Shown here: positions 28,014 through 30,742 of the stretch, one piece after another
Layout: every line of letters starts with the position of its first letter
Numbering within the stretch: the stretch's first letter is position 1
Origin: an uncultured Lachnospiraceae bacterium
GTDB taxonomy: Bacteria > Bacillota > Clostridia > Lachnospirales > Lachnospiraceae
DNA length: 35,949 nucleotides
NCBI GenBank assembly: GCA_902790935.1
Contig: CADATP010000020.1
Span: 1 to 35,949 of the forward strand
Direction of reading: 5' to 3'
Program-made: the position numbers and the translations under genes
Notes under the pieces: generated by a model
The model's database searches: none
What the model saw: only the letters and a program-made list of their open reading frames with translations
Told to the model about the DNA's origin: nothing

Positions 28014-28068
28014 AGTCGTACTCTCCATATTTGGCGTCACAATATTACCGTTCCTTACCGTTTGTTAT

Positions 28069-28097
28069 ATTATAACCCACTTTTTTCTTTAGAGCAA
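28069..28097 (-). promoter_or_regulatory. Predicted promoter of the HTH-Uma2 gene
   Basis: On the minus strand TTGCTC (28092-28097), a 17-bp spacer and a consensus TATAAT (28069-28074). The start near 28062 gives a leader of about 49 nt to the ATG at 28013. Confidence 0.6.
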
Positions 28098-28114
28098 GAC
28101 CTTCAAGTATACGC

Positions 28115-28147
28115 AAAATGGCGATTCTGAACCAGCATCGCCATTTT
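28115..28147. terminator. Hairpin between the sleB-like and Uma2 genes
   Basis: A perfect 11-bp stem AAAATGGCGAT / ATCGCCATTTT with an 11-nt loop. It has only four T in either direction, so it is a weak or auxiliary terminator, or a structural repeat. Confidence 0.5.
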
Positions 28148-28198
28148 ACCTCCCTCACTTCTGTTTTCAAGGGCATAAATAGTTTTTCCATCATAGAA

Positions 28199-28236
28199 AT
28201 AAGACGGTTACCATCACACGATGATAACCGTCTTAT
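28199..28236 (-). terminator. Hairpin downstream of the sleB-like gene
   Basis: A perfect 12-bp stem ATAAGACGGTTA / TAACCGTCTTAT, extended by CATC/GATG after one mismatch, starts 13 bp after the stop codon. The minus strand continues TTCTATG, so the U-tract is poor. Confidence 0.6.
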
Positions 28237-28249
28237 GCTTTTATATGCG

Positions 28250-29422
28250 TTAATAGAATATATGTCCACCGATTGATATTCCGGAGAGTCCTTCAACCGG
28301 GGTTCTGAAATATACGCAGGAGCCAACATTCGTATAGCCGCTCATAGCCTCATCGGCCGCTCTGTAGCAGCTGTCGGTAGCTTTATTTTGAGCAAGCGCA
28401 AGAGCCAGTCTACCGCTTCCCGCAGGAGAAAACTGCTTAGGCGAATAAATTACTCCGGATACGGTATCGGGGAAAACGCTACTGAGCACTCTGTTTATTA
28501 CTACCGCTCCCACGGCAACCTGTCCTTCGTAAGGTTCACCTCCGGCCTCGCAATATATGAGATTCGCAAGAAGCGTCCTGTCGCCCTCCGCAAAAGTAAC
28601 TTCTCCGATGCTCCTCCAGGTAGAGTTTTGGGCTAGCCTGGACTTCGCCCTCTCCTCCTCGAGGAGTTTTTTCAAGTACTCCATATCCTTTTCTTTTTCA
28701 GCTATCTGTGCCTCGTAGGCTTCGATAGCTTTTTGAGTGTCGGATATCTGCGCCGTGTAGTTACTGATCTCAGTCTGAGTCTCAGCCACAACCTGCTCTA
28801 CCCTGGCTCTTTCCTCTTCAGCTTCCGCCTTAAGCTCCTCCAATGAAGCGTACTCGGATTCAAGTCTTTCCTTTTCACCCGCAATGTACGCCCTGGTTTC
28901 TTTGAATTCTTTAAGCTTTTTCTGGTCGTATTCTTCTATCTTGCGGTAGTATTCCTCAAGATTTAAAAGATTCGCAAGACTGCCGGCATGGAGTATCGCA
29001 TTTATAACACTCGTGTCATTTCTTTCATAGGTCTGCTTTACTCGAAGCACCATCGCTCTGTACTGATCTTCTTCAATACGTATGGCTTCAGCAAGCTCGG
29101 CTTCAGCGATGCTGATATCCATCTCCTTGATATTGATCTGGTCCTCAAGGTCTTCGAGGTGGTAGCCTACTTCTTCAAGGGTAGTATTAAGTTCATAGAG
29201 CTTGCCCTGAAGCGTGTTTTTCTCCTGCTTCAGTCCGCTCAGTTGGTTTTCATTTTGCTCCTGCTTCTTTTCAAGCTCCTCTTTTTCCTTTTGAGCCTGA
29301 TCTATCTGCTGCTGCAGTGCCGCCGCGTTGTCTCCTTCGGACTTGGTTCCTAATAAATTAAAGGAGCTTACGAATACAATTACTGCCAGCAAAAGAGCAA
29401 AAAGACTGCGCCTTCTTTTCAA
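28250..29422 (-). CDS. Secreted coiled-coil cell wall hydrolase (SleB/Hydrolase_2 domain)
   Basis: This exported protein probably cleaves peptidoglycan. The 390 residues have a signal peptide (MKRRRSLF then a hydrophobic stretch to about 25), a long coiled coil (about 33-265, rich in Glu, Lys and Gln) like that of CwlO/PcsB-type hydrolases, and a C-terminal SleB-like domain from about 284 (LLANLIYCEAGGEP, candidate catalytic E292; GAVVINRVLSSVFPDTV; SPKQFSPAGSG). The start is TTG (29422) with GAGGG seven bases before it. The SleB domain is known from spore cortex lytic enzymes, but the coiled coil suggests a regulated vegetative hydrolase. It lies 13 bp after the deaminase gene, at the end of the operon. 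Confidence 0.88.
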   Translation of the reverse strand: MKRRRSLFALLLAVIVFVSSFNLLGTKSEGDNAAALQQQIDQAQKEKEELEKKQEQNENQLSGLKQEKNTLQGKLYELNTTLEEVGYHLEDLEDQINIKEMDISIAEAELAEAIRIEEDQYRAMVLRVKQTYERNDTSVINAILHAGSLANLLNLEEYYRKIEEYDQKKLKEFKETRAYIAGEKERLESEYASLEELKAEAEEERARVEQVVAETQTEISNYTAQISDTQKAIEAYEAQIAEKEKDMEYLKKLLEEERAKSRLAQNSTWRSIGEVTFAEGDRTLLANLIYCEAGGEPYEGQVAVGAVVINRVLSSVFPDTVSGVIYSPKQFSPAGSGRLALALAQNKATDSCYRAADEAMSGYTNVGSCVYFRTPVEGLSGISIGGHIFY

Positions 29423-29435
29423 TACCGGTCCCTCA

Positions 29436-29921
29436 CTAAATCATTATCTTGATCTCTCGTCCCGTCCTGCTGTAAGGAACGTATTCTACCCCCGCTGCAT
29501 CAAACATCCTTTTGGCCGCTCTGTTGCCGGGAGTTCCCTCATACTTATCACTGTCAAAAACAACTCTCTTTATTCCCGACTGAATGATAGCTTTAGCGCA
29601 TTCATTGCATGGAAATAAAGATACATAAAGGCTTGCCCCCTCTAAGGATCCGCCTCTGTAATTTAAGATGGAGTTCAGTTCGGCATGGGTTACGTAGGCG
29701 TACTTTGTTTCATCGAGTTCGTCGCCTTCTCTGTTCCAGGGAAACTCCTCATCCGAACAGCCCTTGGGTAATCCGTTGTAACCCATTGAAAGGATCTTGT
29801 TGTCCTCGCTGACAATGCAACATCCAACTTGGGTATTGGGGTCTTTGGAGCGAAAGCCCGAAAGCTGCGCTACCCCCATAAAGTATTCATCCCATCCGAT
29901 ATAGTCTTCTCTCTTTGGCAT
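29436..29921 (-). CDS. dCMP deaminase family protein (ComEB-like)
   Basis: This zinc-dependent cytidine/deoxycytidylate deaminase would convert dCMP to dUMP for thymidylate supply. The 161 residues carry the zinc and catalytic motifs HAE (79-81) and PCNEC (104-108), with RSKDPNTQVGCCIV and GYNGLPKGCSD ahead of them. It is full length for the bacterial family. GAGGG precedes the ATG by six bases. It follows upp after 191 bp that are filled by four hairpins, and the pyrimidine context fits the assignment. Confidence 0.93.
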   Translation of the reverse strand: MPKREDYIGWDEYFMGVAQLSGFRSKDPNTQVGCCIVSEDNKILSMGYNGLPKGCSDEEFPWNREGDELDETKYAYVTHAELNSILNYRGGSLEGASLYVSLFPCNECAKAIIQSGIKRVVFDSDKYEGTPGNRAAKRMFDAAGVEYVPYSRTGREIKIMI

Positions 29922-29954: not shown

Positions 29955-30107
29955 CAAGATGCCGCAAAGTACGCAGCATCTTGCGCGAGACTCCGTCCAT
30001 ACAACGCGTTAATTCATCGCGTTGTATGTCAACATCACAAAATACGTGATGTTGATCGCTTATAATCGAGACCTTTTCATGAGTCTTGCAAAGTACGCAA
30101 GACTCAT
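29955..30107 (-). repeat. Array of four hairpins with a shared loop, between upp and the deaminase gene
   Basis: Four inverted repeats follow one another. H1: 30079-30089/30097-30107, 11-bp stem, loop AAAGTAC. H2: 30029-30038/30046-30055, 10-bp stem, loop AAAATAC. H3: 29998-30008/30018-30028, 11-bp stem, 9-nt loop TTAATTCAT. H4: 29955-29962/29976-29983, 8 bp, one mismatch and 2 bp, loop AAAGTAC. H1 and H4 have the same GC-AAAGTAC-GC tip on unrelated stems. Loops are written on the plus strand; in the transcript they read GUACUUU or GUAUUUU. No U-tracts follow, so they are not ordinary terminators. H2 and H3 are directly adjacent. Confidence 0.85.
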
Positions 30108-30112
30108 CGCTA

Positions 30113-30742
30113 CTACTTTGTTCCGAAGATTCTGTCGCCTGCATCTCCGAGACCGGGAACGATGTATGCGTTCTCGTTAAGCTTTTCGTCAAGAGCTCCG
30201 ACATAAAGATCAACATCGGGATGAGCCTCAGTCATAGCCTTGATTCCTTCGGGAGCAGCGATAATACACATAAAGTGGATGTTTCTGCATCCCTTGTCTT
30301 TAAGCATCTGGATTGCGGCAACTGCCGATCCGCCGGTCGCAAGCATAGGGTCAACCACGAACACCTCTCTGTCGCAGCAATCTGCGGGAAGTTTGCAATA
30401 GTACTCGATAGGCTTGTGAGTCTCGGGATCGCGGTAAAGTCCGATGTGTCCGACCTTTGCTGCGGGGATGAGATTTAACATACCGTCAACCATTCCGAGT
30501 CCTGCTCTTAAAATGGGAATTACAGCAAGCTTTTTACCTGAAAGTTCCTTAACGGTGGTCTTGCAGATAGGGGTGTCTATCTCAACATCCTTTAACTTTA
30601 AATCTCTTGTAGCTTCATAGCAGATAAGCATTGCTATCTCGCTGATGGTATCTCTGAAATCCTTTGTACCGGTATCGATTCTTCTGATGAAACCGATCTT
30701 GTGCTGGATAAGGGGATGATCCATAACTACTACTTTTGACAT
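30113..30742 (-). CDS. upp: Uracil phosphoribosyltransferase
   Basis: Upp salvages uracil with PRPP to give UMP. The 209 residues match the family throughout: [21 protein letters not shown] at the N-terminus (positions 10-30), [13 protein letters not shown], the PRPP loop [11 protein letters not shown] (130-140) and [13 protein letters not shown] at the C-terminus. AGGAGG precedes the ATG. A short inverted repeat TGACAA-4-TTGTCA (about 30755-30770) lies just upstream of the SD. It is the fourth gene of the presumed operon. Confidence 0.98.

Follow-up and report, generated by a model that had tools for sequence, protein, structure and literature searches.

The described family nearest in design to the repeat reported here is Clostridiales-1 RNA (RF01699), which Weinberg et al. 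listed in 2010 as probably RNA and not cis-regulatory, according to the portion of their paper used here (PMC2864571). The pneumococcal BOX, RUP and SPRITE repeats, as presented in an extract of PMC3049150, resemble our element in being small, interspersed and highly folded, in inserting into one another and in a presumed influence on the genes transcribed with them; by that description they are set apart by their sequence HMMs and variable numbers of boxB modules, whereas the element combines free stems with fixed loops. With the bcr repeats of Bacillus cereus the element shares a structured, interspersed nature and a place in UTRs and operon spacers, but these repeats, compared by description from an extract of PMC3446304, belong to another genus. 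The same extract reports a correlation with mRNA decay for bcr3 alone among the bcr families, so that repeats of this kind cannot simply be assumed to affect decay. REPs are palindromes of 20-40 bp with a terminal GTAG or CGTC, as stated in the part of PMC3733652 drawn on here. The locus studied here carries a repeat that previously had no Rfam entry and is spread through one small clade of a rumen Lachnospiraceae genus. We think it quite likely that this is a small interspersed non-coding mobile repeat of one clade, constrained in sequence by its fold and loops and not by the letters of its stems.

The window, i.e., the whole stretch of 35,949 nt that was analyzed, is contig CADATP010000020.1 (GCA_902790935.1), and all coordinates are positions in it, numbered on the forward strand. 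Genomes are labeled G###, loci L###, covariance models R1 and R2, stems of the element P1 to P5, and spacer hairpins hp1 to hp4. The repeat fills most of the 191-nt spacer between upp and a deaminase-like gene, where the following features were placed.

30113..30742, minus strand: upp, uracil phosphoribosyltransferase (NCBIfam TIGR01091, 292.6 bits against a cut-off of 208.35).
30079..30107, minus strand: hp4, P2 of truncated element 1, loop GUACUUU (R1 55.3 bits, being itself an R1 seed; lines up with the complete copies in G013 and G041).
30065..30078, minus strand: remaining half of the P3 of element 1 (GAAAAGGTCTCGAT), cut in its loop (alignment with the intact G013 and G041 copies).
29955..30059, minus strand: element 2, complete from P1 to P5 (R2 106.5 bits, E 4.8e-20; E 4.5e-19 in the whole-genome search; its sequence is one of the 11 used to build R2).
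30056..30059, minus strand: P1 5' arm GCGA of element 2, pairing with UCGC at 29985-29988 (predicted folds).
30029..30055, minus strand: hp3, P2 of element 2, loop GUAUUUU (hairpin scan, fold and R2).
29998..30028, minus strand: hp2, P3 of element 2, loop AUGAAUUAA (hairpin scan, fold and R2).
29989..29997, minus strand: P4 mini-hairpin GAC-GGA-GUC of element 2 (predicted folds and triloop counts).
29985..29988, minus strand: P1 3' arm UCGC of element 2 (folds and R2).
29955..29983, minus strand: hp1, P5 of element 2, loop GUACUUU, with one U.G pair on the minus strand (sequence, fold and R2).
29436..29921, minus strand: deaminase-like (ComEB-like) gene downstream of upp in the same direction, below the NCBIfam cut-offs (TIGR02571, 74.4 bits against 219.45; top match NF041025, 78.2 bits against 400).

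A reading of the sequence alone had proposed that four near-perfect hairpins fill this spacer, and this was borne out by the hairpin scan and by folding. Three hairpins are perfect, namely, 29998-30028 (11 bp, plus-strand loop TTAATTCAT), 30029-30055 (10 bp, AAAATAC) and 30079-30107 (11 bp, AAAGTAC), and in the fourth (29955-29983, AAAGTAC) the only C/A mismatch on the plus strand becomes a U.G pair on the minus, i.e., mRNA, strand. The window holds seven hairpins scoring 10 or more, compared with 0, 1, 0, 0 and 0 in five Markov-simulated windows, and the folding z-score of the spacer is -8.3 on the minus strand and -7.9 on the plus strand, with none of 200 shuffles folding equally well. An automated inverted-repeat search (seed 6, distance limit 60) listed none between 29700 and 30400, and the hairpins thus rest on the scan and on folding. 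The tip GCAAAGTACGC occurs twice in the window and seven times in its genome, as opposed to zero for the reversed control. Four of the seven lie inside such hairpins, two in the window and two elsewhere, and the other three have no such hairpin; of the two outside the window, one presumably stands behind dnaK and the other behind a rubrerythrin-like gene, both names being taken from the reading frame. The top-scoring hairpin of the window lies elsewhere, a near-perfect 17-bp palindrome (ATAAGACGGTTACCATC) at 28199-28236, within a 94-aa minus-strand ORF (28045-28329).

On the minus strand, the upp stop codon TAG is directly abutted by TAGCGA of element 1 and followed by hp4, which starts 5 nt beyond the stop codon, GAAAAGGTCTCGAT, TATAA, GCGA, hp3 and hp2, and then by the mini-hairpin GACGGAGTC, TCGCG, hp1, 33 nt and the deaminase start codon. 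Beyond the four hairpins first described, the spacer also contains a fifth, small one and a closing stem, and the hairpins are one truncated and one complete copy of a folded element of about 105 nt. Taking the four tandem hairpins as the unit is therefore not supported, since the unit is the P1-P5 element, present in the window as a partial copy and a whole one. A single intact copy stands at the same place of the upp spacer in G013 and G041, and in alignment with these, element 1 breaks off in the P3 loop, where element 2 begins. Because element 1 is broken in this loop and runs into element 2, it is likely that a second copy inserted here or recombined with the first to give the block in the window.

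Read side by side, the copies follow the order of an often present stop codon, GCRA (P1), P2 (GUNYUUU), P3, P4 (C-GNA-G), UYGC (P1) and P5 (GUNYUUU-like), in which the closing stem P1 surrounds P2, P3 and P4 and hairpin P5 comes after it. The P1 arms are GCGA/UCGC in 23 rows, GCAA/UUGC in 19 and GCAG/CUGC in 7, together 49 of 57. P2 has 10 to 11 bp, and its loop matches GU[ACU][CU]UUU in 55/57 rows, so the heptaloop that had been noticed on three of the spacer hairpins proved to be common to the family, as GUNYUUU on the mRNA (minus) strand. P3 (about 11 bp) carries a loop of about AUGCNYYAA or AACGCNYUUA. P4 is C-GAA-G or C-GGA-G, at times extended with GCGAAGC, and has a GAA or GGA triloop in 45/57 rows; GNA triloops form stable DNA hairpins. 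P5, of 10 to 11 bp and joined through a linker after the P1 3' arm, has a looser version of the P2 loop, with GU[ACU][CU]UUU in 26/57 rows and, in the rest, a difference at one or more places or a longer hairpin instead.

Two covariance models were used to follow the repeat, R1 built from five single hairpins and R2 from 11 whole-element sequences (107 positions). With R1, eight matches with E < 1e-5 at five loci were found in the window's genome, the five seeds included, and matches in 5 of 23 other genomes of the genus; over 80 named upp loci, only L096 and L097 gave good matches. With R2, 7 of 31 genus genomes were found to carry the element, at as many as 30 matches per genome, and the other 24 had none at E <= 0.01, although most of the genus genomes are drafts, which makes absence from any one genome weak. 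The seven bearing genomes are those whose upp is at least 93% identical to that of the window, the next genome standing at 89% in a ranking of the 27 with a upp match, and the element was absent from all four unranked genomes without one. Family-wide, R2 returned only the window's own genome and one loopless match in a sample of 397 genomes under stricter filters, through which weak relatives may have escaped. The suggestion that the repeat is genus-specific comes close, though only 7/31 genus genomes carry the element. The repeat family with diverging stems and constant loops foreseen in the sequence-only reading did emerge from the Infernal search that it proposed, with many loci and changes on both arms.

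The loopless match (G135, E 1.3e-9) has arms but, by eye, no GUNYUUU loop, and was taken as chance or an unrelated structure; in two R1 matches in other families (E 0.01 and 0.07), the rest of the element was missing by eye. Rfam searched at the gathering score gave no match in the whole window, and permissive matches in the spacer, L042 and L065 were to chance families, e.g., MS2, U12 and microRNAs. Among the best matches in open-licence PMC papers, no title described this repeat.

The conservation of the fold was evaluated on 67 aligned R2 matches, 66 of them distinct, amounting to 2356 pair cells. Cells were paired in 97.0% of cases, compared with 64.8 ± 0.6% after shuffling and 28.5-41.6% when partners were slid by 1-3 positions; the alignment is fitted to the structure and hence favors pairing, and the slid controls use the same alignment. 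Both sides had changed in 786 cells versus 204.5 after shuffling, and the covariation score was 0.751 versus 0.211. Two-sided changes were present in 38 of 39 pairs, which says little by itself and is only a modest excess, given a shuffled mean of 33.0. At the upp spacer, the outer stem and P3 are altered on both arms between G013 and G041.

The position of the element relative to genes was examined for 57 copies by recording same-strand ORFs of at least 70 aa ending between -8 and 40 nt from GCRA. Such an end was found for 28 of 57, of which 27 lie within -1 to 7 nt and 24 belong to ORFs of at least 100 aa, and on the reverse side an opposite-strand ORF ends near P5 in 6/57. The element usually starts with TAA or TAG, so incoming frames stop there and the stop-codon distance is sharpened accordingly. 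The remaining copies are second tandem members, are adjacent to tRNA genes or have no such neighbor. According to ARAGORN, a copy in each of G000, G008, G012, G013 and G014 has its 5' end 6 bases away from a tRNA-Arg(acg) gene encoded on the other strand (antisense copies at L045, L085, L092, L064 and L057). Further copies lie antisense beside tRNA-Arg(tct) or tRNA-His genes at L046, L069 and L091, and a weak match at L047 overlaps a tRNA-Arg(acg) gene.

Judging from its genomic distribution, the element is interspersed and mobile. At a junction between genes that we take to be priA-like and def, only G012 of the seven bearing genomes has a copy, and there the priA-like frame meets TAG two bases before GCAA. 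G000, G008, G013, G014 and G041 have no copy at this place, and their upstream protein is five codons longer; in G005, the compared stretch stopped short of the upstream gene and R2 had no match on that contig. No clear target-site duplication was seen at this one filled/empty site, and in a second comparison of this kind only one flank matched in four relatives. MITEs are marked by terminal inverted repeats and a target-site duplication; in the element, the P1 arms are inverted and P5 lies outside them. The upp-deaminase spacer holds copies in G000, G013, G041 and G008 and, by eye, a decayed-looking copy in G005, whereas G014 (44 nt) has a short resembling stretch without a whole copy and G012 (67 nt) none. 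By eye, the element is absent from the upp spacer of ten other genus members, in which the upp stop-to-start distance is at most 27 nt in eight, 45 nt in G003 and 110-122 nt in G010. Tandem copies occur in G008 and G012, and five copies of G012 are 89-99% alike over about 150-230 nt.

Shared loci were used to observe how the stems change. Among 353 pair cells, 100 double Watson-Crick changes (64 transitions and 36 transversions) were counted versus 15 single or other changes, and 65 of 279 unpaired cells had changed, with 40 transitions to 25 transversions. At these loci, paired positions therefore change at about the rate of unpaired ones, in most cases on both arms together and with a like spectrum. 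Template switching, which the consulted part of PMC8794818 describes for RNA genes, predicts such concerted change of the arms with a spectrum like that of unpaired bases, and we consider it somewhat more probable, from these patterns, that the palindromes are kept up at the DNA level than that they are not. A DNA hairpin strictly selected for Watson-Crick stems would show a similar picture. Single changes are also found: 48 copy pairs that are 80-99% alike show 71 single changes and 148 double Watson-Crick ones, those with 95% identity or more differ by single changes only, and shared locus L044/L086 runs contrary to the general pattern with 6 single or other versus 3 double changes. A path of mutation followed by compensation is thus also possible.

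That path belongs to a reading of the element as a functional RNA family, either a cis-acting 3'-UTR element or a processed sRNA, selected at the RNA level, spread mainly by duplication and with its perfect stems maintained through ordinary compensation. We find this unlikely. In its favor, the fold is conserved with covariation over most pairs, about half of the copies stand in sense behind stop codons, the nearest copies differ through single changes, and one P2 pair of the upp spacer runs from C-G in G013 through U.G in G041 to U-A in G000. The pairs themselves point both ways. Among 2389 pair cells (identical rows kept separate), 2271 are Watson-Crick, 47 G.U, 20 A.C and 51 other, so that G.U exceeds A.C on the sense strand; yet G.U pairs are few in all, and in P2 and P3 the excess is little (13 versus 9). 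Strand preference was judged from these consensus pairs and not from folding whole copies, where a G-U pair inside the GUNYUUU loop inflates the test on the sense strand. Compensation through G.U would moreover favor transitions, and the double changes have about the transition share of unpaired bases, which counts against that route. Absence at E <= 0.01 from most genomes of the genus also speaks against a functional RNA. Finally, the antisense copies beside tRNA genes mean that a 3'-UTR role cannot hold for all copies or explain the family, whereas spread as a mobile repeat can explain all of them.

Plain intrinsic terminators or chance palindromes would account for strong intergenic hairpins, but no U-tract follows the hairpins in the spacer, as had been noted when simple termination was called unlikely, and with the family spread and covariation we regard this explanation as hardly credible. 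A REP/REPIN-type palindrome mobilized by a RAYT-like Y1 transposase would be likewise palindromic, extragenic, present in many copies and possibly read as a folded single strand, the REP mode being single-strand hairpin recognition (PMC8266576, in extract), and Y1_Tnp occurs in 5/7 bearing versus 4/24 non-bearing genus genomes. However, the 67 aligned rows have by eye no conserved terminal GTAG or CGTC, the element is several times longer than 20-40 bp, and no linked transposase was found: around the seven Y1 places of the bearing genomes (15 in the genus), R2 had no match and R1 one weak match (15.6 bits). Two of the seven bearing genomes have no Y1 match, among them G008, a draft that is 87% complete and has 19 R2 matches. 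Membership in this class is accordingly improbable.

A descent from Clostridiales-1, as a divergent and reshaped branch of RF01699, is a little less improbable but still rather doubtful. The layout is the same, a P1-closed junction of three arms (P2, P3 and P4 in the element) with a GNA triloop in the last arm and mostly Watson-Crick stems, and G.U pairs are few in RF01699 too, at 28 among the 1284 pairs of the folds predicted for 20 copies. The window's genome has eight RF01699 matches, both families having multiple copies within the same genomes. In 6 of 8 Clostridiales-1 loci (L177, L178, L179, L180, L181 and L183, at about position 1501 on the sense strand), the stop codon of the preceding gene is contained in the first bases of the copy or directly adjoins them, and in three Butyrivibrio loci, chosen because their spacers looked structured, a copy stands directly behind the upp stop (L123:3131-3283, L152:3129-3279 and L155:3130-3299). 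Arms, loops and size nevertheless differ, with 166 model positions versus 107, GAGC-type inner arms that the element lacks and an outer P5 without counterpart, and the element's host range is narrower in the genomes searched, RF01699 being found in 22 of 40 at E <= 0.01 (20 over the cut-off). R2 had no match up to E 10 in 20 Clostridiales-1 copies, and RF01699, searched for with permissive thresholds, had none in L042, in L065 or in the spacer of the window. Because neither model finds copies of the other family where tried, the element is not filed under RF01699, though built like it. In one of the Clostridiales-1 loci (L181:1501-2065), the copy ends 57 nt before a same-strand RNase P RNA gene.

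Returning to the preferred reading of a mobile repeat of one clade, its movement would be helped by an enzyme encoded elsewhere, which would recognize the single strand by its fold and loops. The arms would be kept complementary mostly at the DNA level through template switching between them, and selection for the fold would discard failed copies. Within an operon such as upp-deaminase, the transcript would then carry a stable hairpin block right behind a stop codon. This block should hold up 3' exonucleases acting on the upp mRNA, and expression of the genes downstream may be lowered or uncoupled, as is thought for REP- and BOX-type repeats. An array recognized through GUACUUU and a site of mRNA processing or stabilization, the roles first proposed from the sequence, are candidate functions. 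By analogy with the repeats described in the extracts of PMC3049150 and PMC3446304, decay and the upp:deaminase ratio may be changed.

Covariation is the standard proof of a selected RNA, and this clade-limited repeat covaries strongly yet looks concerted rather than compensatory, which makes it suitable for testing to what extent template switching can imitate RNA selection. It also leads one to ask whether Clostridiales-1 and similar Rfam families might be mobile DNA. As a tentative extension, less likely true than false, the element and Clostridiales-1 could be two branches of a class of stop-codon-capped mobile repeats, whose working form would be a folded single DNA strand and whose covariation would be largely template switching. 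What Rfam lists as an 'sRNA' of gut Clostridia would in that case be a transposable element, and two-arm conversion of palindromes in bacteria could be assayed naturally and rapidly with these repeats. R2 provides a ready annotation model for the repeat, which in rumen Lachnospiraceae lies within gene pairs, e.g., upp-deaminase and dnaK-dnaJ.

Other repeats were observed in the same genomes. Upstream of def on contig C171 of G005 (L256), a short tandem array of ACAGTACAAAAG units was present that was unseen in the other genomes compared. The five recent copies of G012 (L074, L075, L076, L078 and L079) form a subfamily, of which at least three seem, by eye, to be enclosed by an extra outer stem, about 20 bp long and different in sequence from copy to copy.
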